A stretch of 64,000 nt of DNA from Alphaproteobacteria bacterium (lineage in GTDB: Bacteria; Pseudomonadota; Alphaproteobacteria; Micavibrionales; UBA2020). The stretch lies in assembly GCA_025934695.1 (NCBI GenBank), contig JAICWS010000002.1:973043-1037042 (forward strand). Reading direction: 5' to 3'. The translations under genes were made by a program, and so were the position numbers. This document shows, one piece after another, positions 27,676-36,450 of this stretch; the first letter of the stretch is position 1; each line of letters opens with the position of its first letter. The notes beneath the pieces were generated by a model that saw only the letters and a list, made by a program, of their open reading frames with translations, was not told the origin of the DNA and made no database searches.

Positions 27676-28068
27676 CTACACGGCGGCAACCGCGCGTGAA
27701 TTCTCGACACCGCGGCGGTGCGAGGAGATCTGGTGCCGCACGGGGTGGAATATCCTGACGAGTTCCGCCGCCGCCTGATGCGCGTCGCAGCTGCCGCAGA
27801 CGAAGATGTCGAGCGCCATGTAACCGGTTTCGGGCCAGGTGTGGATGCTGATATGAGATTCGGCGAGGATGGCGACGCCCGTCACGCCGCTTTGCGGCCC
27901 GAAGGAATGCAGCATAATGTCGAGCACGGTGGCGCCGCAGGCTTTCGCGGCCGCGCGCAAGGCCTGTTCGACGGCCCCTAAGTCCTGCGCGTGTTTCGCG
28001 CCCCAGAAATCGAGCAACAGGTGCATCCCCGGCGCTACGTAGGACGATAGAGCAGGATTTTTTTCCAT
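27676..28068 (-). CDS. speD: S-adenosylmethionine decarboxylase proenzyme
   Basis: 130 residues, the short prokaryotic class. Self-cleaves to form a pyruvoyl cofactor and makes decarboxylated SAM, the aminopropyl donor for spermidine synthase. The signature AESHISIHTWPE is intact: cleavage before Ser71, with His76 and Cys91 (FVCGSCD) in the expected catalytic places. The start (AAGGA ribosome site) lies 34 nt inside the upstream membrane-protein gene, so the two are translationally linked. Last gene of the polyamine/SPFH cluster. The C-terminal 15 residues beyond the core are unconserved in type. Confidence 0.95.
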   Translation of the reverse strand: MEKNPALSSYVAPGMHLLLDFWGAKHAQDLGAVEQALRAAAKACGATVLDIMLHSFGPQSGVTGVAILAESHISIHTWPETGYMALDIFVCGSCDAHQAAAELVRIFHPVRHQISSHRRGVENSRAVAAV

Positions 28069-29135
28069 TCCGAATCCTTCAGGTTATGCTTCCAGATAAA
28101 GGCGTCCAGCAGGTAATGCACCGACTGCGGCAGCGCCAGCAGCGGGACGAGCCAGATCATGATGTATTCCGATTTCACCTGCGGCAGGTAGCGCGAAAAG
28201 CCGAACAGCGCCCCATGCTCGCGCCAGACGAAGCCGTCCCACACGCCTTCCTCGAGGAAGGCGAGGGCGAAGAGCAGCGCGATATAGAAGGGGATCATCC
28301 GCAGGCTGAAGAAGCGGCTGATGAAGCGAGTGATATAGGGCGCGGCATTTCCGCGCATGTCGCGCTGGTTGCGGCCGTAAATCCAGATCAGGGCCATGTA
28401 CGGGATGCCATGCGCGACGACATTCGTCGCGGTAAAGGCAAGATCGTTGTTGAAAATGACGATGCCCGCGGACCACGATAGTGCGGTGCCGAGCAGCAGC
28501 AGGTTCTTGGGCACATTCACCATTCCGTCTTTGCGTGCATAATAGATTTCCTTGACGGCATAGGCCGCCATCACCGCCGCGAATAGCGCGCCCACGATTA
28601 TCCCCAGTGCCGGCCAGTCGACATAGAACAGGTCGCCGTCGATGAACCACGACAGGCCCAGCTTGTGGCAGTGCCACCAGGCGAGCGGAAACAGGGTGGC
28701 GAGGTAAATGGCGGCCTGGTCGATCAGCCGCGTGAATTTCGGGCGGCTGCGTTCGCCGCGCGCGTAGATCATCATAAAGCCATATTGCTGGCGGATAAAA
28801 TGGAAGACGGCGAGATAGGCCAGCACCCGCCAGAAGGTGAAGCCGCTGACGCTGTAAAGCATGACGCCTCCAATCCAGGCGCCGAGCGGCGCGAGCGTGT
28901 AGAGCGAGGGGCGTTTCTTCAGCTCTTCCTTATCGAGATAGGTGCGGAAGATGGTGGAATAGACATGGCTTACATCAACGCCGACGATCAGCAGCAGCCA
29001 CAGCCAGGGCGGCGTGCCGTCGGTCAGCGCGATCTGGTCCCGGAACAGCACGACCAGCACCGTGATGATGAAGGCGGGACCGACGATAAAGCCGAGGTCG
29101 GCGGCGCGCGAGGCGATCCAGGGCTGCTTCACCAT
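28035..29135 (-). CDS. Histidine-rich multi-spanning membrane protein of the polyamine cluster
   Basis: 366 residues with about eight to nine transmembrane helices and no signal peptide. No family named with confidence. Polar motifs lie at helix ends: VDVSHVYSTIFRTYLDKEE (His57), LAVFHFIRQQYGF (His112), WWHCHKLG (His155, His157), NVVAHGIPYMALIW (His242) and PQSVHYLLDAFIWKH (His340, His350). So many membrane-embedded His/Asp residues suggest a metal-dependent integral-membrane enzyme (compare fatty-acid hydroxylases or Brp/Blh oxygenases) rather than a carrier; that is inference. The ATG follows the stop of the FAD oxidoreductase by 1 nt and its 3' end overlaps speD, placing it firmly in the operon. 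Confidence 0.85.
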   Translation of the reverse strand: MVKQPWIASRAADLGFIVGPAFIITVLVVLFRDQIALTDGTPPWLWLLLIVGVDVSHVYSTIFRTYLDKEELKKRPSLYTLAPLGAWIGGVMLYSVSGFTFWRVLAYLAVFHFIRQQYGFMMIYARGERSRPKFTRLIDQAAIYLATLFPLAWWHCHKLGLSWFIDGDLFYVDWPALGIIVGALFAAVMAAYAVKEIYYARKDGMVNVPKNLLLLGTALSWSAGIVIFNNDLAFTATNVVAHGIPYMALIWIYGRNQRDMRGNAAPYITRFISRFFSLRMIPFYIALLFALAFLEEGVWDGFVWREHGALFGFSRYLPQVKSEYIMIWLVPLLALPQSVHYLLDAFIWKHNLKDSEWKKILLYRPT

Positions 29136-29136
29136 C

Positions 29137-30762
29137 TCACAGCTCCGTCTCGTAAGGGATTTTGTGGTATTTCAGCGTGCGCTCCGCCGCATCGACGCCG
29201 CGGGTATAGGCTTCCTCGAAGATCGAAATCCCGCTGAGGTCCGAATGGGCGCGGAAGATCGGCGGCTTCTGCGCCATTGCCTTGCGCCGCGCCGCGCCCC
29301 AGATAAAGCCCGGGGTCGGACGCACCATGGCGTGCCCCCAGATCCAGACGTCGAGGTTCTCGACATGGCCTTCGACTTCGGGGTGGACGGCGTAGAGTTC
29401 TTTCAGGAAGATATCGCGCCAGTCTTCATAGCTGCGCGCCAGCGCCTCGGCGCGCGCGGCTTTCGGTTCGGCATGATTGAGCGGCCAGTAATAGGTGAGG
29501 ACGGTGCGCAGCGGCACCATTTCGGTGTTCTGGTGCGTGGCGACGACATAGCCCAGCAGTTTGCTGTCGTAAATCATGTTGTCCCATGCAAGGTCGACGC
29601 CCTTGCCGGCCGGTAGTTTCGACAGCGTCACGTTGGCGACGACCCAGGGGGCGTAGGAGAAATCATTTGCCGGTATTGCTTTATCGTCGAGTAGCCGCGC
29701 CGCGATGAACTGCGGCGTCGCGACAATGACGGATTTCGCCGAGATACGCTTTGCTTCGCTGGTCTTCTGGTCGAGGTAATCGACATTGACGCGGGCGCCG
29801 TCCTGCTTCACGCGAAAGGCGAGTGTGGAGGGGATGATATTGTCCTTGATCGGCTCCATCAGCCTGTGGGCGAGGAAACCATTGCCTTCCGGCCAAGTGA
29901 CGAGGCCGCCCGGCGCGGCATTGGCGGCGGTGCCGGTGCGCGCGGCGAAGTAATGCATGCCGGCCCAAGCGGAGGTCTGGTCGAAGGACGACCCGTAATC
30001 GTCACGGCAGCAGTAATCGACATACCAGCGCAGCGGCTTCGAGGTGTAGCCTTGCGCATCCATCCAGTCCTTCATGCTGAGCGTGTCGTATTTCAGCCAG
30101 TCGGGATCCTGCGAACTTTTATCCACCGGGATCGCGAATATTTTCTTGCCGTCCCTGCCGCGCTTGTTCTTGAAACTGTCGGTCAGTGCGAAGAAGGCGC
30201 TGTATTGGCGCTTGTCGTCTTCCGTCAGCCCCAGGTTCGGCACCATGCCGTCCTGCCAGCGGCCTTCGATGAACAGCCGTTCGTGCGGATCGGAACAGAG
30301 GAAATATTCGTCATAAATCGGCAGGCCTTTGTCGTCATGGCCCTTGATGATGCCGAGTTCCTCGAACAGTTTTTTCGGTGCGCGCGACTCATCGGTCAGC
30401 AGCGGCACATAATGCGCGCCCCAAGGGTAAGCCGAAGTTGCGTTCCTGCCGCTTGAGGCGTTGCCGCCGGCTTGATGTTCCAGTTCCAGCAGCGCGAAAT
30501 TGGTATGGCCCGCTTTCTTTAGGCGATATCCCGCGCCAAGGCCCGCGATGCCGCCGCCCACGATGACGACGTCCTTTTGAATTGTGCTGGAAATAGCAGG
30601 GAACGTGCCGCCGCGCAACTGGTGGCCGATTTTCGCCGATGCGCCGAGTATTTTGCCCGTCACCGCAGGCTGTTCCGCAGCCGCAGGCAGAAACCTGCCG
30701 AAGCCCAGCGCCGTCGCCAGCGCCGCGCCCATGCCGAGAAAGCTGCGCCGCGAGACTTTCAT
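29137..30762 (-). CDS. Tat-exported FAD-dependent oxidoreductase (amine-oxidase-like)
   Basis: 541 residues. N-terminal twin-arginine signal VSRRSFLGMGAALATALGF directs the folded flavoprotein to the periplasm. The dinucleotide-binding motif VVIVGGGIAGLGAGYRLKKA is followed by LLELEHQAGGNASSGRN, as in the flavin amine-oxidase/NAD_binding_8 superfamily. A conserved-looking AYPWGAHYVP loop follows. Substrate unknown; its place between speE and speD suggests a polyamine or related amine. I start at the ATG giving MKVSRRSF; a TTG three codons upstream (30771) is an alternative. A family B repeat separates it from speE. Confidence 0.88.
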   Translation of the reverse strand: MKVSRRSFLGMGAALATALGFGRFLPAAAEQPAVTGKILGASAKIGHQLRGGTFPAISSTIQKDVVIVGGGIAGLGAGYRLKKAGHTNFALLELEHQAGGNASSGRNATSAYPWGAHYVPLLTDESRAPKKLFEELGIIKGHDDKGLPIYDEYFLCSDPHERLFIEGRWQDGMVPNLGLTEDDKRQYSAFFALTDSFKNKRGRDGKKIFAIPVDKSSQDPDWLKYDTLSMKDWMDAQGYTSKPLRWYVDYCCRDDYGSSFDQTSAWAGMHYFAARTGTAANAAPGGLVTWPEGNGFLAHRLMEPIKDNIIPSTLAFRVKQDGARVNVDYLDQKTSEAKRISAKSVIVATPQFIAARLLDDKAIPANDFSYAPWVVANVTLSKLPAGKGVDLAWDNMIYDSKLLGYVVATHQNTEMVPLRTVLTYYWPLNHAEPKAARAEALARSYEDWRDIFLKELYAVHPEVEGHVENLDVWIWGHAMVRPTPGFIWGAARRKAMAQKPPIFRAHSDLSGISIFEEAYTRGVDAAERTLKYHKIPYETEL

Positions 30763-30790
30763 GTTGCGCAAGCAATAATTGGAGGGTGTG

Positions 30791-30937
30791 GGACAATCCC
30801 TCTCCCCCCGCCCTCTCCCGCGACAGGCGCGGGAGAGGGAGCCAGGGCGGCTCTTTTTGCAACAGGAGGTTCAATGAGAACGCAGCTGTTCCCTCTCCCG
30901 CCGAAGGGCGGGAGAGGGTTAGGGAGAGGGATTGTCC
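30791..30937. repeat. Nested palindromic repeat, family B (copy 2)
   Basis: The outer arms GGACAATCCCTCTCCC (30791-30806) and GGGAGAGGGATTGTCC (30922-30937) are perfect 16-bp inverted repeats. Inside each arm is a hairpin: CCCTCTCCCGC-gacag-GCGCGGGAGAGGG type (30811-30839) and CCCTCTCCCGCC-gaag-GGCGGGAGAGGG (30891-30918). It fills the gap between speE and the FAD oxidoreductase and could reduce read-through within the cluster. Confidence 0.85.
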
Positions 30938-30952
30938 TGAACTCGATCATTC

Positions 30953-32464
30953 TCAATACACCAGGTACTCGCCCCATTCCTGGTCGAAATAGCGCACCAG
31001 GGCCTGGTCGTCGAGGCGCTGGATCTTGGTCTGCACCTTCGACATGTCGGGCGGGAAGGAGAACATCAGTTTCGCCGATTCCGGGTTGAGGAATTTGAGA
31101 CCGTCGACAAAATGATCGGGCATGTCGTAATTGCCCAGCGACGCCATCACGAAACCCCATTCGCCGAACGAGGGGACATAGACGTGGAACGGATAGGTCT
31201 TGAAGCCTACGCTTTCCATCGTGTTGTTTACGCACCAAAATGTTTTCCGTGCGATCAGCGGCGAGGTGCTTTGCACGGTGACAATGCTGTGGTCGGTGAT
31301 GACGCTCTTCAGCTGGCCGAAAAAGGTCGTCGAATACATCTTTCCGATGGAATAGTTCGAGGGATCGGGCACATCGACAAAGACGGCGTCGAAAACCGGG
31401 TGCTTGTCCTGGCGGCTGACGTCGCGCAGCCAGACGAAGGCGTCCTTGTTGATGATGGTCAGCTTAGGCGACAGCAGGGAGTCGTTATTCAGGCTCGTCA
31501 ACAGCTCGTTCTTCGAGAACAGCAGCGTCATCGCGGGGTCGAGGTCGACCATCGTCACATGATCGACCGATGGGTATTTCAGGATCTCGCGCAGGGCGAG
31601 GCCGTCGCCGCCCCCGATGATGAGAATATCTTTCGGGTCCTTCAGCGCCGCCATGGAAGGATGCACCAGCGCCTCGTGATAGCGGTATTCATCGACCGAG
31701 GAGAATTGCAGGTTGCCATTCAGGAACAGGCGCAGGTCTTTCTGTGTCTTGGTAATGACGATGCGCTGATAGGGCGTCGATTCCGCGAATATGACGTTCG
31801 AATAGATGCCGTTTTCGGCAATCGTCATCAGTTTTTCGGAATAGATGAAGCCGAAGGTGAGCGCAATCAGCGTCACGATGGCGACCGCCTTGTGCACGTG
31901 CAGCGCGTGGACATGTTCCTTCACCGCATAGAGCAGCCAGATGGCGACGCCGACGTTGAGCATGCCGAACATGAAGCTGGATTTGACGAGGCCGAGGTAG
32001 GGCACCAGCACCAGGGGAAACAGCACCGAGGCGAAGAGCGCGCCGAGGTAGTCGAAGGCCAGCACGCGCGAGACGAGGTCGCGGAACTCGAACCGGTCGC
32101 GCAAGATTCGCAGCAGCAAGGGGATTTCGATGCCCACCAGGACGCCGATGACGCCGACGATGAAATAGAGCACGAGGCGGAAGGAGGTCACATGCTCGAA
32201 CAGCATGAATAGCACGATGGCTGAACAACCGCCCACCGCGCCGACGAGGATCTCGACGCGGATGAAATAGCCAAGCAGGTTGCGGTGGATATATTTTGTC
32301 AGCCACGAGCCGATGCCCATCGCGAAGAGATAGCTGCCGATGACGGTCGAGAACTGCGTGACCGAGTCCCCCAGCAAATAGCTGGCCGCGGTGCCCGCGA
32401 TGAGCTCATACACGAGCCCGCAGGTCGCGATGATGATGACGGATATCAGCAGCATTGAGGGCAA
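30953..32464 (-). CDS. speE: Membrane-anchored polyamine aminopropyltransferase (spermidine synthase)
   Basis: 503 residues. Residues 1-205 form about seven transmembrane helices; residues about 220-503 are a spermidine synthase domain that transfers aminopropyl from decarboxylated SAM to putrescine. Seen: IIGGGDGLALREILKYP (282-298) for the SAM analogue, VTMVDLDPAM with Asp307, and the catalytic loop FVDVPDPSN. The TTG start at 32464 is preferred because AAGGAGAG lies 6 nt upstream; the first ATG is three codons on. The soluble enzyme (about 290 residues) is the usual form; this long membrane form is also known in bacteria. Follows DUF350 by 18 nt. Confidence 0.94.
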   Translation of the reverse strand: MPSMLLISVIIIATCGLVYELIAGTAASYLLGDSVTQFSTVIGSYLFAMGIGSWLTKYIHRNLLGYFIRVEILVGAVGGCSAIVLFMLFEHVTSFRLVLYFIVGVIGVLVGIEIPLLLRILRDRFEFRDLVSRVLAFDYLGALFASVLFPLVLVPYLGLVKSSFMFGMLNVGVAIWLLYAVKEHVHALHVHKAVAIVTLIALTFGFIYSEKLMTIAENGIYSNVIFAESTPYQRIVITKTQKDLRLFLNGNLQFSSVDEYRYHEALVHPSMAALKDPKDILIIGGGDGLALREILKYPSVDHVTMVDLDPAMTLLFSKNELLTSLNNDSLLSPKLTIINKDAFVWLRDVSRQDKHPVFDAVFVDVPDPSNYSIGKMYSTTFFGQLKSVITDHSIVTVQSTSPLIARKTFWCVNNTMESVGFKTYPFHVYVPSFGEWGFVMASLGNYDMPDHFVDGLKFLNPESAKLMFSFPPDMSKVQTKIQRLDDQALVRYFDQEWGEYLVY

Positions 32465-32482
32465 GGCCGTCTCTCCTTCGCC

Positions 32483-32713
32483 TTAACCGTGTATCGCAGC
32501 CGAGATGATCATCGAGATGCCGATGATCATGGCGGCGAGAAAGATGGAGACGGCGACGTTCTGCTTTTCGACGATTTCCTTCCAGACGCTGACTTTCGGC
32601 GTCACAATGTCGAAGATGCCGTAGCTGATCGCGAAGGCGATAAGGCCGACGATGGAAAAGACCAGCGCGCTGATCATGCTCGAGAGCAGTTTCATGTTGA
32701 ATATGTCTTCCAA
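32483..32713 (-). CDS. DUF350 family small membrane protein
   Basis: 76 residues, two transmembrane helices (MISALVFSIVGLIAFAISYG; VSIFLAAMIIGISMIISAAI). One unit of the DUF350 (YjfL-like) family, whose role is unknown but which is repeatedly found beside DUF4178 and SPFH genes. TTG start: AGGAG is 6 nt upstream and overlaps the TAG stop of the preceding 45-codon gene, so translation is probably coupled. ATG at 32695 is an alternative. Many DUF350 proteins hold two tandem units; this one has only one. Confidence 0.87.
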   Translation of the reverse strand: MEDIFNMKLLSSMISALVFSIVGLIAFAISYGIFDIVTPKVSVWKEIVEKQNVAVSIFLAAMIIGISMIISAAIHG

Positions 32714-32722
32714 GATATTCTC

Positions 32723-32860
32723 CTATTTGTGGTAATGGTTGGCGGTTTTGCTGGCCGTGCCCTGGCCCATGAAGTACGAGGCCCAGACGATGCCGTTGAC
32801 GTTCGCATAGGCGAAGGCGAGAAGGACGACGGCGGCGTAGATGACGAATTTAAGGGACAT
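32723..32860 (-). CDS. Small single-helix membrane peptide (45 aa)
   Basis: 45 residues; begins MSLKFVIYAAVVLLAFAYAN and ends with a polar tail KTANHYHK. One transmembrane helix. It fits exactly between its neighbours: the ATG lies 2 nt after the stop of the DUF4178/zinc-ribbon gene and its TAG stop is part of the AGGAG ribosome site for DUF350. No independent ribosome site, so it relies on coupling. No family known; I consider it a real gene that automatic callers would often miss. Confidence 0.65.
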   Translation of the reverse strand: MSLKFVIYAAVVLLAFAYANVNGIVWASYFMGQGTASKTANHYHK

Positions 32861-32862
32861 GT

Positions 32863-34200
32863 TCAATTATCCGGGGCGAAATCGCTGTTGGACCAGCGCG
32901 TTCTTTCGAACGAGCTTCGTTGCATCCACTCGAACGCGGGCCAGATCGCCAGCAGGGCGAGCGTGATAAAGAAATTGCTCCAGGGCGTCGTGCCCCGCGT
33001 CAGGCGCACGTCCATGGTCATGGGCAGCCCCTTGTCGAACAGGCCTGAGTCGACGTCGTAAACGACGCGGTAGGTGCCGGCGGGAACGGCAGAGAAATAT
33101 TCGGTCGACCACTGGCCGCCCTCGCTCCAGTAGCCGTCGGAGTCATAGCCGTGCCAGTATTCGATCGCCTGGCGCATATTGTGGGTCTCGGCGCTCGTGT
33201 CTTCCCCGGAGCCTGCCTGTTTCACCAGCGAAAAGCCGTATTCCGCCCAGTCGTTATCGACAGGCGCGTAAGAGGCGACCTCGATATTGGTCTTCGACGG
33301 GATCTCGAACGGGTCCGAGGTGAAATCGCGCGAGCGGTCGGTGAACATATGCGTTTCGTTGATGGTGAGCACGCGCGCCGGATGCGAAGCCGCCATCGTC
33401 GAGATATGGATGAAAAGGGCGATGCCGAAGGCGACGGCGGCCGTCGCCGTCAGCCAGCCGAGATGGTACGGGTTGGGCTGGTTCGGGCCGACGCCCTTTC
33501 TCCAGGGCAGCGCGTGCGGCGGCTGGAACGCGTTGCGAATCACGTCCGGCTCGACATATTCGCACATCGAGGTGACCTCATCGCCCTCGGTATATTCGAA
33601 CGACAGCATATAGGGCGGGCAGACGTAATCCTCGGTATGGGCGCGATCGCCTTTCTTGATGCGCCAGTAAAACTCGCCCTTCACGTACTGGACGGTAGGA
33701 TCGTCCTGCAGAAACGGCTTGAACTTGAGCTTGTCGAGCCAGACCTCGCAGTTGAAGGAAGGCTTCTCGAACTCCTGCTTGATCATCTTCACGAAGCTCC
33801 AGTGCCCGTCCATCTGCACAAGGAAGCGGAAGCCCTGGTAAGGATTGAACAGCAAGTATTCTTCCCAGAAATAAACGCCGGTCTTGTCGCTCTTCAGCGT
33901 ATATCCGATGACCTCCCAGACGGTATTCTGGAGCTTGCCCCGCATGCCGATCTCGAGCGGCGTTTCGCGGATCGCTTGCGAGGCCTGCTGGATGATCGAG
34001 AGGTTGCCGTCGGCGACGTCGACGACCGAGCCGCAGTTCGCGCAGACGGCGGTCATGGTGGCGCCCAGCGCGCGCAGCTTGATCTGCCCGCCGCAGTTGG
34101 GACAATTGAAGACATGGACGGATTTGACGAAGGGCATCCCGGGCTTGGGCGCCGGCTTTTCGGTGGGCAGAGGCAGGTCGGGCGAGGTCGCGTCGGTCAT
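32863..34200 (-). CDS. DUF4178 protein with zinc ribbon and membrane-flanked outer domain
   Basis: 445 residues. Order: Pro-rich start, zinc ribbon with Cys33/36 and Cys53/56 (FNCPNCGGQIK; VCANCGSVVD), DUF4178 domain (about 70-235; WEEYLLFNPYQGFRFLVQ), a transmembrane helix near 260-280, an extracytoplasmic beta-rich domain (about 285-405) and a second helix near 415-435. So cytoplasmic DUF4178 is tied to a periplasmic sensor-like domain. The start ATG overlaps the stop of the upstream DUF4178 gene by one base (TGATG). DUF4178 has no known activity; it occurs with SPFH and DUF350 genes. An in-frame upstream ATG (34248) would sit inside the neighbour. Confidence 0.88.
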   Translation of the reverse strand: MTDATSPDLPLPTEKPAPKPGMPFVKSVHVFNCPNCGGQIKLRALGATMTAVCANCGSVVDVADGNLSIIQQASQAIRETPLEIGMRGKLQNTVWEVIGYTLKSDKTGVYFWEEYLLFNPYQGFRFLVQMDGHWSFVKMIKQEFEKPSFNCEVWLDKLKFKPFLQDDPTVQYVKGEFYWRIKKGDRAHTEDYVCPPYMLSFEYTEGDEVTSMCEYVEPDVIRNAFQPPHALPWRKGVGPNQPNPYHLGWLTATAAVAFGIALFIHISTMAASHPARVLTINETHMFTDRSRDFTSDPFEIPSKTNIEVASYAPVDNDWAEYGFSLVKQAGSGEDTSAETHNMRQAIEYWHGYDSDGYWSEGGQWSTEYFSAVPAGTYRVVYDVDSGLFDKGLPMTMDVRLTRGTTPWSNFFITLALLAIWPAFEWMQRSSFERTRWSNSDFAPDN

Positions 34201-34880
34201 CACCAGCCCTCGAAATGGCGGTAGTTGGAACAGCGCAGGTCGTTCCATTCAACATAGCTGCCCTCGAAAACGCGCGTGCCGTCGTCACCCACTTCGATCG
34301 AGGCGAATTGCCCCGCGCCGTAAATGAGGTCGAGCGACCAGGTCTTGCGCCCTTGCGGCGCGCTGAAGGGCAGCTCGCCTTCCGAGGCGATGCATTCAGC
34401 CTGCTTGACGTCGACGATCTTGTACTTGGCGAAGCGCAAGCCGATACTATGTCCGAGCAGTCCCGCCGCAGAGCCCGGATCGGCCAGGCGCGCGGCCAGC
34501 TGGGCCACCGCGCCCTTGTGCACCTCATCCAGGTCGCCGGTCGTCTCGAAACAGGGCGCGTAAGCGCCCTGCGCCTCCGCCAGCCAGCCCTTGCGCATGT
34601 CGTCCGACACCATGAACCATTCGTTCCACGAGCCGTCCTGCCAACCGATGCGCATGCGCCCCACGATGCCGAAGTGCACGCCCTTGTAATAACCGGCGGC
34701 GCCGATCTGGAACGGGCTCATGTCGTCGGGCAGTTGCGCCATCGTGCCGATGCTCTTGATGCCCTCGTCCTGGCGCACGACCATGGTGCGGCAGTAGGGG
34801 CAGACAGCATAGGCCGCGATGCTGGTGCGGAAAGGGATTTGTGCGCCGCAGGTAGGGCAGGGGAAGTTGGTGATCGGCAT
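34200..34880 (-). CDS. DUF4178 protein with N-terminal zinc ribbon
   Basis: 226 residues, soluble. Zinc ribbon with Cys8/11 (PCPTCGAQIP) and Cys27/30 (VCPYCRTMVV), then two DUF4178-like strand-rich segments (YKGVHFGIVGRMRIGWQDG and KYKIVDVKQAECIASEGELP), ending near SIEVGDDGTRVFEGSY and EWNDLRCSNYRHFEGW. It is a smaller paralogue of the next gene without membrane helices. Six nt after the SPFH gene and overlapping the next gene by one base. Confidence 0.87.
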   Translation of the reverse strand: MPITNFPCPTCGAQIPFRTSIAAYAVCPYCRTMVVRQDEGIKSIGTMAQLPDDMSPFQIGAAGYYKGVHFGIVGRMRIGWQDGSWNEWFMVSDDMRKGWLAEAQGAYAPCFETTGDLDEVHKGAVAQLAARLADPGSAAGLLGHSIGLRFAKYKIVDVKQAECIASEGELPFSAPQGRKTWSLDLIYGAGQFASIEVGDDGTRVFEGSYVEWNDLRCSNYRHFEGW

Positions 34881-34886
34881 GGCGGC

Positions 34887-35882
34887 TTACTTTATCTTCG
34901 CCAGCAGCTCCGCCTTTTTCTTGTCGAACTCGTCTTGCGACAGGATGCCTTTGGCCTTAAGCTCGCCCAGGCGTTCGATCATCGCGACCGGATCTTCATT
35001 CGCGCCGCCGCCGTTTGCGCCCATGCTCGTGCCCATGGCCTGGCTCATCATCTGGCCCATGGCCATGCCTGCGCCGATGCCTGCGCCCGCGCCGGCGATG
35101 CCGCCGGGGTTTGCCGCCGCGACCGAAATGCTGTCCGCCGCCTGGAACTGCGCGTATTTCTGGAGATCGCCGAACATGCGCATCGACGAGAGCTTGTCGA
35201 GTTGCTTCTCCATTTCCGTGGGAAGAGAGATGCTTTCAACGAAGAAGTTTTTCAGGTCGAGCCCGTAATTCTTGAAGGCAGGCGCGATCGCGTCCTTCAG
35301 CTTCTGCGAAAAATCGCCTTGGTTCGCCGCCATATCGATGAAGGCGACGTCTGACTTGCCGAGGAAACTCGCGAGCGATGTGATGACGGCGGCGCGCAGC
35401 TGACCTTCCGCGTTCTCGACCGTATAGCGATCGGTCGTGCCCGACAGCTTGTTGAAGAACACTTCGAGATCCGCAATCTGGTATGAATAATTGCCGAAAG
35501 CGCGGATACGCAGGGGACCGAATTCCTTGTCGCGCACGGTGATCGGCTGCGCAGTGCCCCATTTCTGGTCGGTCTGCTCGCGCTTGCTGAAGAAATAAAC
35601 GTCGGACTTGAATGGAGATTCAAACGCCTTGTCCCAGTTCTTCAGGTCGGTCAGGATCGGCAGGTTCTTGGTGTTGAGCGTATAGGTGCCGGCCTCGAAC
35701 TTGTCGGCGAATTTGCCCTCGTTGAAGAACACGGCCGCCTGCGTTTCGCGCACGATCAGCTGACCGCCGTTCTGGATTTCCTTGTCCGCGAAGGGAAAGC
35801 GCCAGGCCAGCGTTCCGGGCCCGTCTTCGGTCCACTGGATGACGTCAACAAACTGCTTGGAAAGAAAATTTTTCAGACCCAT
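34887..35882 (-). CDS. SPFH-domain protein with C-terminal SHOCT (YdjI-like)
   Basis: 331 residues, no transmembrane helix. Resembles the YdjI/virion-core-like branch of the SPFH (stomatin/prohibitin/flotillin) superfamily, which forms membrane-associated oligomers: start MGLKNFLSKQFVDVIQWTED, then GGQLIVRETQAAVFFNEGKF and FGNYSYQIADLEVFFNKLSG. A Gly/Ala/Met-rich linker (about 255-290) leads to a SHOCT helix motif (IERLGELKAKGILSQDEFDK), common on proteins targeted to membranes. First gene of the cluster; the 100 nt upstream are AT-richer, with a TATATAATG patch, and likely hold its promoter. Confidence 0.9.
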   Translation of the reverse strand: MGLKNFLSKQFVDVIQWTEDGPGTLAWRFPFADKEIQNGGQLIVRETQAAVFFNEGKFADKFEAGTYTLNTKNLPILTDLKNWDKAFESPFKSDVYFFSKREQTDQKWGTAQPITVRDKEFGPLRIRAFGNYSYQIADLEVFFNKLSGTTDRYTVENAEGQLRAAVITSLASFLGKSDVAFIDMAANQGDFSQKLKDAIAPAFKNYGLDLKNFFVESISLPTEMEKQLDKLSSMRMFGDLQKYAQFQAADSISVAAANPGGIAGAGAGIGAGMAMGQMMSQAMGTSMGANGGGANEDPVAMIERLGELKAKGILSQDEFDKKKAELLAKIK

Positions 35883-35982: not shown

Positions 35983-36450
35983 CTATTCCACCGCGGGCGC
36001 GTAGCGGCCTTTCATGCCGTTCAGGTAGGGCACGAGTTCGTCTGCCTGCCAGCCGTAGGTATTGGGCAGCAGAATGGATTTCCTGTTCGGATCGTTGAAA
36101 GAAATTCCCACGACCTGCACTGGCTTGCGCGTGGTCTGGAGCTCGACCGGTTTGAACGACTTGATCTCAGCCCATTTCAGCGTGGATTTCGTTTTTCCAT
36201 AGCGGAAAGACAGGCTGTCGCGCGTGAGTTTCAGGTAGGCGTGGCCCGTCAGCATCAGGAACGGGTTCATCAGCATCAGGTACGAGAGACCGCCGAAGAT
36301 GATCACCGCGGCAAAGGCGATCAGGCGCACGACAACACCGTCGCGGAAACATTCGGCGATGCTGATCAGGAACAGCGCGCCAACCAGCAGCGATTTGTTT
36401 TCCCACCTGGGGTAATAGATTTCCTCGCCGGCGGTGGCGGTGCGCATCAT
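35983..36450 (-). CDS. Membrane protein with PH-like (STM3941-like) domain
   Basis: 155 residues. Two hydrophobic segments (SLLVGALFLISIAEC and VVVRLIAFAAVIIFGGLSYL) are followed by a strand-rich cytoplasmic domain that reads TRDSLSFRYGKTKSTLKWAE, IKSFKPVELQ and VVGISFNDP, like the small membrane PH-like STM3941 family. Function unknown. Starts 7 nt after proA (AAGGA site), so it is the last gene of a proB-proA unit and lies just upstream of the SPFH gene on the same strand. Confidence 0.72.
   Translation of the reverse strand: MMRTATAGEEIYYPRWENKSLLVGALFLISIAECFRDGVVVRLIAFAAVIIFGGLSYLMLMNPFLMLTGHAYLKLTRDSLSFRYGKTKSTLKWAEIKSFKPVELQTTRKPVQVVGISFNDPNRKSILLPNTYGWQADELVPYLNGMKGRYAPAVE

Follow-up and report, generated by a model that had tools for sequence, protein, structure and literature searches.

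This report concerns a nine-gene operon on the minus strand of a 64,000-nucleotide stretch of an alphaproteobacterial genome (GCA_025934695.1, contig JAICWS010000002.1; the whole stretch is called the window), in which genes for S-adenosylmethionine (AdoMet) decarboxylase (speD) and a membrane-anchored relative of spermidine synthase (speE) stand with genes for a flavin adenine dinucleotide (FAD) oxidoreductase, a polytopic membrane protein of 366 amino acids (aa), DUF350, DUF4178 and SPFH proteins, and a 45-aa peptide. The operon is a conserved single system, and nearly all of the operons with a membrane-fused speE that were compared encode a protein tail ending in lysine. The reading that we favor, at a probability of about 0.57 and by comparison of sequences, is that the operon encodes an envelope protein-modification system, in which SpeE would aminopropylate the C-terminal lysine of the tail and the FAD enzyme would oxidize the product. 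The genes and elements are, in window coordinates:

34887..35882, minus strand: SPFH/band-7 protein with C-terminal SHOCT (Pfam: Band_7_1, 254.9 bits; SHOCT, 34 bits)
34200..34880, minus strand: DUF4178 protein a, zinc ribbon-like N-terminus and DUF4178 (PF13785, 41.7 bits)
32863..34200, minus strand: DUF4178 protein b, zinc ribbon-like N-terminus, DUF4178, membrane segment and a further domain (PF13785, 35.8 bits)
32723..32860, minus strand: 45-aa tail peptide with a single transmembrane (TM) segment, ending ..NHYHK, the proposed acceptor (position kept in the 58 loci scored)
32726..32731, minus strand: codons CAC AAA for the C-terminal His-Lys of the 45-aa peptide, followed by a TAG stop (sequence reading)
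32483..32713, minus strand: DUF350 protein with two TM segments, ending ..AAIHG (PF03994, 50.7 bits)
30953..32464, minus strand: speE, membrane-anchored spermidine-synthase-like aminopropyltransferase, 7 TM segments and a transferase domain (PRK03612, 628.8 bits)
30812..30917, no strand: two intergenic hairpins between the speE and FAD genes (repeat search)
29137..30762, minus strand: FAD oxidoreductase of amine-oxidase fold with the signal MKVSRRSFLG, of twin-arginine translocation (Tat) type (Amino_oxidase and NAD_binding_8 matches)
28035..29135, minus strand: 366-aa polytopic membrane protein with invariant His, Asp and Glu, outside known families (no Pfam or NCBIfam match)
27676..28068, minus strand: speD, S-adenosylmethionine decarboxylase (TIGR03330, 115.8 bits; Pfam AdoMet_dc)

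In loci that carry the 366-aa gene, the open reading frame (ORF) between DUF4178b and DUF350 encodes one hydrophobic segment and a variable tail, often rich in Gly, Ser and His. The tail ends in His-Lys in 57 of the 58 loci scored, mostly as Tyr-His-Lys, the exception being L043, which ends in His-Gly-Lys (L and G numbers are our own handles for loci and genomes); the 58 comprise the window and 57 of the 80 loci that best matched the 366-aa family, the other 23 being without DUF4178 or speE and left unscored. Among ORFs of at least 150 aa from the same loci, the His-Lys ending occurs in 5 of 1706. Tails picked by position and hydropathy alone ended in His-Lys in 52 of 56 cases; the four other picks were L043 and wrong overlapping ORFs in L066, L070 and L077, where the true peptides end in His-Lys, while L032 and L073, which yielded no pick, have this ending in the 58-locus scoring. 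Matches to a profile hidden Markov model (HMM) ended in His-Lys in 28 of 29 cases, the profile including the tail and hence not being fully blind. It was ruled out, by two selections that ignored the last residue, that the ending is a product of a search directed at His-Lys. Conservation for reasons at the DNA level was also ruled out, because the lysine codons, histidine codons and stops of the tail vary across loci, from which it follows that the constraint acts on the protein. The first-pass annotation had listed the 45-aa peptide, which is indeed present, and had given it no role; its C-terminal lysine has proved to be the strongest clue. No report of the lysine-ended tail, nor of an aminopropylated lysine or protein, was found in the openly licensed literature.

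The terminal lysine extends to operons that were chosen without regard to the 366-aa gene. A speE fusion scoring over the NF002956 cut-off occurs in 44 of 398 Pseudomonadota genomes, and 40 stretches from 39 of the 44 were compared, five genomes being left out, that of the window among them. A lysine-ended tail is present in 38 of these 40 loci, in 37 within the stretch and in the remaining one, L124, outside it, as an His-Lys-tailed DUF4178 protein elsewhere in genome G618. Three kinds of protein carry the tail: a separate peptide, the C-terminus of a DUF4178 protein, and a lipoprotein or small anchored protein, a lipobox being present in 11 of the 13 lipoprotein carriers. In seven loci (L121, L123, L125, L128, L130, L133 and L156) a tandem DUF4178 protein has the tail as its own C-terminal end. 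His-Lys tails occur in L121, L122, L123, L125–L131, L133 and L156, and 25 loci have lysine tails without a preceding histidine. The latter are lipoprotein-like tails ending in Gly-Lys (12 of 12 members of one sequence cluster, plus L142), peptides ending in R[IV]K (L134, L135 and L137–L139), and small or DUF4178-borne tails ending in GGK or SGK (L136, L141, L149, L152, L154, L155 and L158).

A filter that took no account of the last residue left 30 ORFs within the operons. Lysine is the final residue of 28 of them, in as many loci, and the remaining two run antisense to the FAD gene and to speE; two more ORFs passed outside the operon range, one ending in Lys (beside DUF350 in L150) and one in Leu. 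The filter therefore gave a lysine-ended tail in 28 of the 40 loci, the others having tails below its thresholds or no tail. For L122, L126, L127, L136, L137, L142, L154 and L155 the tail was taken from a list that contained lysine endings only, and L122, L127, L136, L142 and L154 among these passed the blind filter as well. In L159 a 35-aa ORF ending in His-Lys was set aside as spurious and the locus was counted by its lipoprotein, which ends in GGK. One of these speE-fusion operons contains a gene for a peptidase M50B-like membrane protein (L136:13217-13888), whose sequence cluster is represented in 4 of the 40 loci.

The residue before the lysine varies with the FAD gene. The FAD protein (E<=1e-20) is encoded in 12 of the 39 speE-fusion genomes, and a His-Lys tail is present in all 12 of these versus 1 of the 25 FAD-negative genomes that have a tail (Fisher p = 7e-9, with kinship ignored). 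The 27 FAD-negative genomes comprise 24 with another lysine ending, one with His-Lys (G497) and two without a tail. Plasmid records show the same association: there were 13 matches, of which nine were examined, and a tail was found in eight, every one ending in lysine. Those with the FAD gene end in His-Lys (two from Novosphingobium and two from Burkholderia) or His-Gly-Lys (Gemmatirosa), while those without it in the stretch read have no histidine there (Tritonibacter RVK, Ensifer SGK, Alteromonas SGK); in the ninth, from Rhodovulum, speE is truncated and no tail was found. The FAD gene had at first been taken for an addition to the cluster, which does not hold, as it is not peculiar to this genome and a polyamine oxidase figures among the variants described in the main text of a published survey (Ravi et al., 2024; PMC11237479).

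Conservation of the operon as a whole was followed through the 366-aa gene. A genome scan for its family gave at least 583 stretches, of which 556 encode a relative, and the gene content of the best 80 loci was scored by iterated HMM search of their ORFs, yielding the FAD gene in 63, speE in 60, DUF4178b in 57, DUF350 in 52, speD in 49 and SPFH in 22. All 60 speE-bearing loci among these 80 also contain the FAD gene, a co-occurrence to be read with the fact that the loci were retrieved via the 366-aa gene itself; a recount did not alter the main totals. The proposal that these genes form one cluster is thereby borne out, and the dissociation of FAD from speE that a neighborhood comparison might have revealed was not seen. 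Hosts of the best 80 loci include Alpha- and Betaproteobacteria, Bacteroidota, Cyanobacteria/Melainabacteria, Leptospiraceae, Bdellovibrio-type bacteria and Acidobacteria. Closer to home the family is sparse, with matches in 7 of 55 genomes (that of the window included, one match being weak) and in 2 of 385 genomes of the same class (that of the window included, the other match being weak); the gene was found in none of the 40 speE-fusion stretches from other Pseudomonadota, and a plasmid search with the protein gave no match. The 20 loci of the best 80 that are without speE include several short contigs. In six Armatimonadota-type loci of this kind (L036, L039, L041, L056, L074 and L075), the 366-aa gene follows two genes of shared families, which in L036, the only one compared with Pfam, match GSP_synth (glutathionylspermidine synthase type) and a GyrI-like family. 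Two kinds of polyamine-type enzymes thus accompany the 366-aa protein. In L026, from a metagenome-assembled genome of Hydrogenophilales, a speD-like ORF follows the 366-aa gene, and speE and FAD genes were not found in the stretch.

The 366-aa protein itself had been described at the outset as His-rich, which an alignment of 66 sequences confirms: six histidines are invariant or nearly so (H57, H112, H155, H242, H307 and H340). Its AlphaFold2 (AF2) model is of high confidence, with a mean predicted local distance difference test (pLDDT) score of 94.7, and Foldseek gave no PDB fold match for it at E<=0.001, a result that is evidence neither for a new fold nor for a difference from known ones. 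The best VIA-align superposition on a UbiA-type prenyltransferase (Z 5.5, root-mean-square deviation 6.1, 175 residues aligned) is too weak to use. No description of the protein was found in the openly licensed literature.

Several observations place the transferase, the tail and the FAD oxidase on the same, outer side of the membrane, as far as topology can be predicted from sequence. The AF2 model of SpeE (pLDDT 91.4) has seven long helices followed by a spermidine-synthase-like alpha/beta part. Averaged over 98 SpeE sequences, lysine and arginine are abundant in the loops that follow helices 2, 4 and 6 and scarce in those that follow helices 1, 3 and 5, which by the positive-inside rule puts the N-terminus inside and the transferase domain outside, so that this domain is predicted to face the periplasm. 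In the tail peptides the flank N-terminal to the hydrophobic segment is more positive than the C-terminal flank in 41 of 56 cases, less positive in 6 and equal in 9, three wrong picks being included in this set of 56. In five of the seven fused DUF4178-tail proteins, just one hydrophobic segment separates the tail from the zinc-ribbon/DUF4178 part. Finally, the FAD proteins carry a Tat-type motif: of the 57 homologues with a recognizable FAD motif, 46 have an RRx-hydrophobic motif at most 95 aa ahead of it. Among 63 long homologues, 52 have the RRx-hydrophobic motif within residues 1 to 75, and most of the other 11 have a near variant such as SRx or RK.

SpeE also retains residues of catalytic type, and D287, D364, D367 and R261 are identical in 76 of 76 aligned sequences. 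Within its membrane part, E20, D33, E113 and D138 are identical in all 76 and E71 in 72. R261 adjoins the Tyr-His of the acceptor region and is present in none of the five solved enzymes, among 26 matched, whose alignments were inspected.

These features can be assembled into a mechanism. SpeD would make decarboxylated S-adenosylmethionine (dcSAM), which the seven-TM part of SpeE, with its invariant acidic residues, would pass or hold as a cation, and in the periplasm the SpeE-like enzyme would move the 3-aminopropyl group onto the side-chain amine of the lysine with which the 45-aa peptide ends. The side chain of lysine is an aminobutylamine, that is, putrescine less one amine, and ends in the same four-carbon amine as putrescine, the acceptor of spermidine synthase; placed at the end of a flexible tail, a lysine could reach into a pocket of the spermidine-synthase type, and R261 could bind the terminal carboxylate. 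On the same side the Tat-exported FAD enzyme would oxidize the aminopropyl-lysine, His-Lys being the ending paired with this enzyme, and the oxidation could either release the aminopropyl group or yield an aldehyde. The 366-aa protein would probably partner the FAD enzyme in the membrane and, with low confidence, may hold metal or heme and pass electrons, while the DUF4178, DUF350 and SPFH proteins might assemble and hold the complex.

A number of points weigh against this mechanism. The case for modification of the tail is comparative throughout. To our knowledge dcSAM export has not been described, and since dcSAM is made in the cytoplasm a periplasmic transferase would be unusual. The predicted topology would be flipped by one mis-assigned helix, although cytoplasmic modification of the tail ahead of its export would still be conceivable; moreover, two fused DUF4178-tail proteins depart from the common pattern, which slightly lowers our confidence. 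That of L128 has one extra marginal segment and that of L133 has two hydrophobic segments in all, so that the tail of L133 would sit inside. The genome of L133, G497, is also the one with a His-Lys tail and no FAD gene, and in L148 and L151 (genomes G477 and G482) neither a tail nor, anywhere in the genome, a DUF4178 match was found. Other families of the operon likewise have preferred C-termini: for DUF350 the ending is His-Gly (45 of 53 homologues, closing a TM helix), for DUF4178 Gly-Trp (24 of 88 and 24 of 92 members of two overlapping sets), for SpeD Arg (26 of 50) and for SPFH Ile-Lys (8 of 23), so a preferred ending alone is no proof of modification (SpeE, the FAD protein and the 366-aa protein have no dominant C-terminal dipeptide). 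The published variant that comes closest is described in a paragraph on ATP-grasp operons (Ravi et al., 2024; PMC11237479), whereas the nine genes of the window include no ATP-grasp gene. Lastly, the conserved lysine could be a docking motif, and the window's genome, with a single speD and no other strong spermidine synthase, leaves room for spermidine synthesis by the operon.

Docking is the least unlikely of the other explanations. Under it, SpeE, DUF350 or DUF4178 would bind the lysine end by way of its charge and carboxylate, and the end would assemble the complex or sense polyamines and would never be modified. Flexible tails rich in Gly, Ser and His, with little fixed except the end, are what C-terminal binding motifs look like, and the fusion of the tail to DUF4178 in seven loci fits a structural role. 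What the three types of tail have in common, however, is an aminopropyltransferase as partner, the known acceptor of whose relatives is an aminobutyl amine, and a sister class of operons pairs a peptide-spermidine ligase with tails that mostly end in Gly-Gly; for these reasons we regard pure docking or sensing as unlikely.

The account first given for the cluster was that spermidine is made at the membrane and an amine oxidized in the periplasm; in the form weighed here, SpeD and the membrane SpeE make the spermidine, the FAD enzyme oxidizes a free polyamine in the periplasm and the peptide is an accessory subunit. It agrees with the Pfam and NCBIfam names of the enzymes, with the catalytic-type residues kept in SpeE and with the lone speD in a genome that has no other strong Spermine_synth gene, but leaves unexplained both a terminal lysine shared by three kinds of carrier and the correlation of His-Lys with FAD, sits badly with the reported absence of spermidine synthase activity in such fusions, and is accordingly judged distinctly improbable and unsupported as a description of the cluster. 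A Tyr-His-Lys tail that binds metal or heme for the FAD enzyme and the 366-aa protein, in an electron transfer unrelated to aminopropylation, would account for the many His-rich tails of FAD-positive loci, for the association of His-Lys with FAD and for the invariant His, Asp and Glu of the 366-aa protein. Yet FAD-negative operons keep the lysine without histidine, and some His-Lys tails, such as that of L016, have a single histidine, which makes this explanation very unlikely indeed. Modification of the terminal lysine thus remains the reading that we prefer.

In the ORF reading of the 64-kb window, the minus strand carries all nine genes in the order and with the tight spacing that the first-pass annotation had reported. 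The SPFH and DUF4178a genes are separated by 6 nucleotides (nt), the two DUF4178 genes overlap by 1 nt, and gaps of 2, 9 and 18 nt follow between DUF4178b and the 45-aa peptide, between the peptide and DUF350, and between DUF350 and speE; the FAD and 366-aa genes are 1 nt apart and the latter overlaps speD by 34 nt. The speE-FAD gap, earlier given as 188 nt with a repeat, does contain the repeat, and its length is 190 nt to the ATG at 30762 or 181 nt to an upstream TTG. The repeat consists of two perfect 12-bp hairpins of one type, CCTCTCCC..GGGAGAGG, at 30812-30838 and 30892-30917, with a third copy at 2182-2205 of the window, and 100 shuffles of the window gave no such hairpin. As the speE and FAD ORFs are 7 nt apart in L011, a close relative, the hairpins look like an insertion, judging by this one relative. 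Directly upstream of the SPFH gene, at 35983-36450, is a gene for a 155-aa protein with a sub-cut-off match to the STM3941 family, and none of the other best 80 loci contains a relative of it.

Family assignments within the operon range from strong to absent. NCBIfam names the speE product PRK03612 'polyamine aminopropyltransferase' (628.8 bits against the NF002956 cut-off of 472), and Pfam Spermine_synth (PF01564) matches its transferase part. The FAD protein matches Amino_oxidase at 23.3 bits (gathering cut-off 19.8), which places it by family among the flavin amine/polyamine oxidases. DUF4178 protein b has a TM segment at 252-270 by hydropathy, and a search of the genome for DUF4178 matched only this operon's two copies. 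At E<=0.01, neither the 45-aa peptide nor the 366-aa protein has a match in Pfam or NCBIfam. Elsewhere in the genome no second AdoMet decarboxylase was found, the operon speD being the single AdoMet_dc match, and two further spermidine-synthase-like matches are both weak. A carboxyspermidine route was considered and rejected, the TIGR01047 match reaching 47 bits against a cut-off of 409.

Membrane-fused spermidine synthases are common and we know of no settled acceptor for them, and the near-universal presence of a lysine-ended protein in the speE-fusion operons compared supplies a concrete, testable candidate. Should the proposed mechanism be true, it would be a new kind of envelope protein modification and would account for the association of polyamine genes with DUF350, DUF4178, SPFH and PspA stress genes; together with the YgiC/YjfC class, which would act on Gly-Gly ends, it would point to a general scheme of polyamine-tagged envelope tails. 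A wider proposition, held tentatively and at somewhat less than even odds, is that of an extracytoplasmic modification present in many phyla and unlike any known to us, with a periplasm-facing SpeE homologue, dcSAM supplied via its own membrane domain, an aminopropylated tail lysine and, for His-Lys tails, further oxidation by a Tat-exported FAD enzyme, possibly to an envelope-crosslinking aldehyde.

The supposed link of DUF350, DUF4178, SPFH and spermidine synthase genes to PspA-type envelope operons is indeed published: the main text of the survey mentioned above describes an operon class with a 7TM-fused spermidine-synthase-like protein, DUF350, DUF4178 and a lipoprotein (its group two), as well as, in its paragraph on ATP-grasp operons, PspA-less variants, one of which combines band-7/SHOCT and AdoMet decarboxylase with a polyamine oxidase (Ravi et al., 2024; PMC11237479). 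Monitoring of the polyamine level, or of 'aminopropylation of other substrates', is suggested there as a possibility, Li et al. (2019) being cited for the latter. The operon resembles the band-7/SHOCT variant in having band-7 and SHOCT domains, AdoMet decarboxylase, an amine-oxidase-type gene and no PspA, the last as first supposed: a PF04012 search found no PspA in the one genome of the window, compared with 9 of 14 control genomes. The variant would have two C-terminal TM segments between band-7 and SHOCT; simple hydropathy finds no TM segment in the window's protein, and a Gly/Ala/Met-rich stretch lies at that place. The main text of the survey, figures and tables excluded, makes no mention of lysine, a small peptide or the periplasm, and its section 19 names no protein of the 366-aa type.

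With the PRK03612-type membrane-fusion operons of the Ravi and Li studies, the operon shares a 7TM-fused aminopropyltransferase scoring over the cut-off and DUF350 and AdoMet decarboxylase neighbors. Li and colleagues, in Biochem J in 2019, reportedly found clusters of AdoMet decarboxylase and a membrane protein-spermidine synthase fusion with DUF350, and are said to have proposed an unnamed acceptor other than putrescine; the role is reported to be independent of polyamines, and the membrane fusion reportedly fails to complement a spermidine synthase mutant. In contrast to that unnamed acceptor, a lysine-ended tail protein is proposed here.

A parallel is found in the ygiB-ygiC and yjfM-yjfC operons of Escherichia coli, in which polyamine chemistry likewise stands beside a Gly/Ser-rich tail with a preferred C-terminus, the yjf genes having DUF350 and PspA neighbors. 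YgiC and YjfC reportedly have peptide-spermidine ligase activity, going by the title of a 2023 paper of Pederick and colleagues. Their DUF1190 neighbors in E. coli, YgiB and YjfM, end in Gly-Gly, and DUF1190 proteins with a YgiC/YjfC-type ligase gene downstream (L171:3-416, L170:88-726 and L172-L199) end in Gly-Gly in 16 of 21 cases, in Gly-Ser in 3 and in Ser-Ser in 2, seven of the 28 DUF1190 matches being left out as they had no scored ligase downstream (two of these end in Gly-Gly, and L186 was read in the wrong ORF). This pattern suggests that the C-terminus of the DUF1190 protein is a natural substrate of the ligase. Unlike the proposed dcSAM-dependent transfer to lysine, theirs is an ATP-grasp ligation to a carboxyl end.

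Hypusine and deoxyhypusine of eIF5A are a known case of a polyamine-derived aminoalkyl group on a protein lysine, and they differ in that the group is aminobutyl, the lysine internal, the location cytosolic and the enzyme another one. With spermidine synthase (PF01564) the window SpeE shares the transferase domain and catalytic-type residues, to which it adds the 7-TM anchor, R261 in the acceptor region and the operon context. The operon is thus of a known kind, and what is new is the tail, its correlation with the FAD gene, the predicted periplasmic topology and the 366-aa member.

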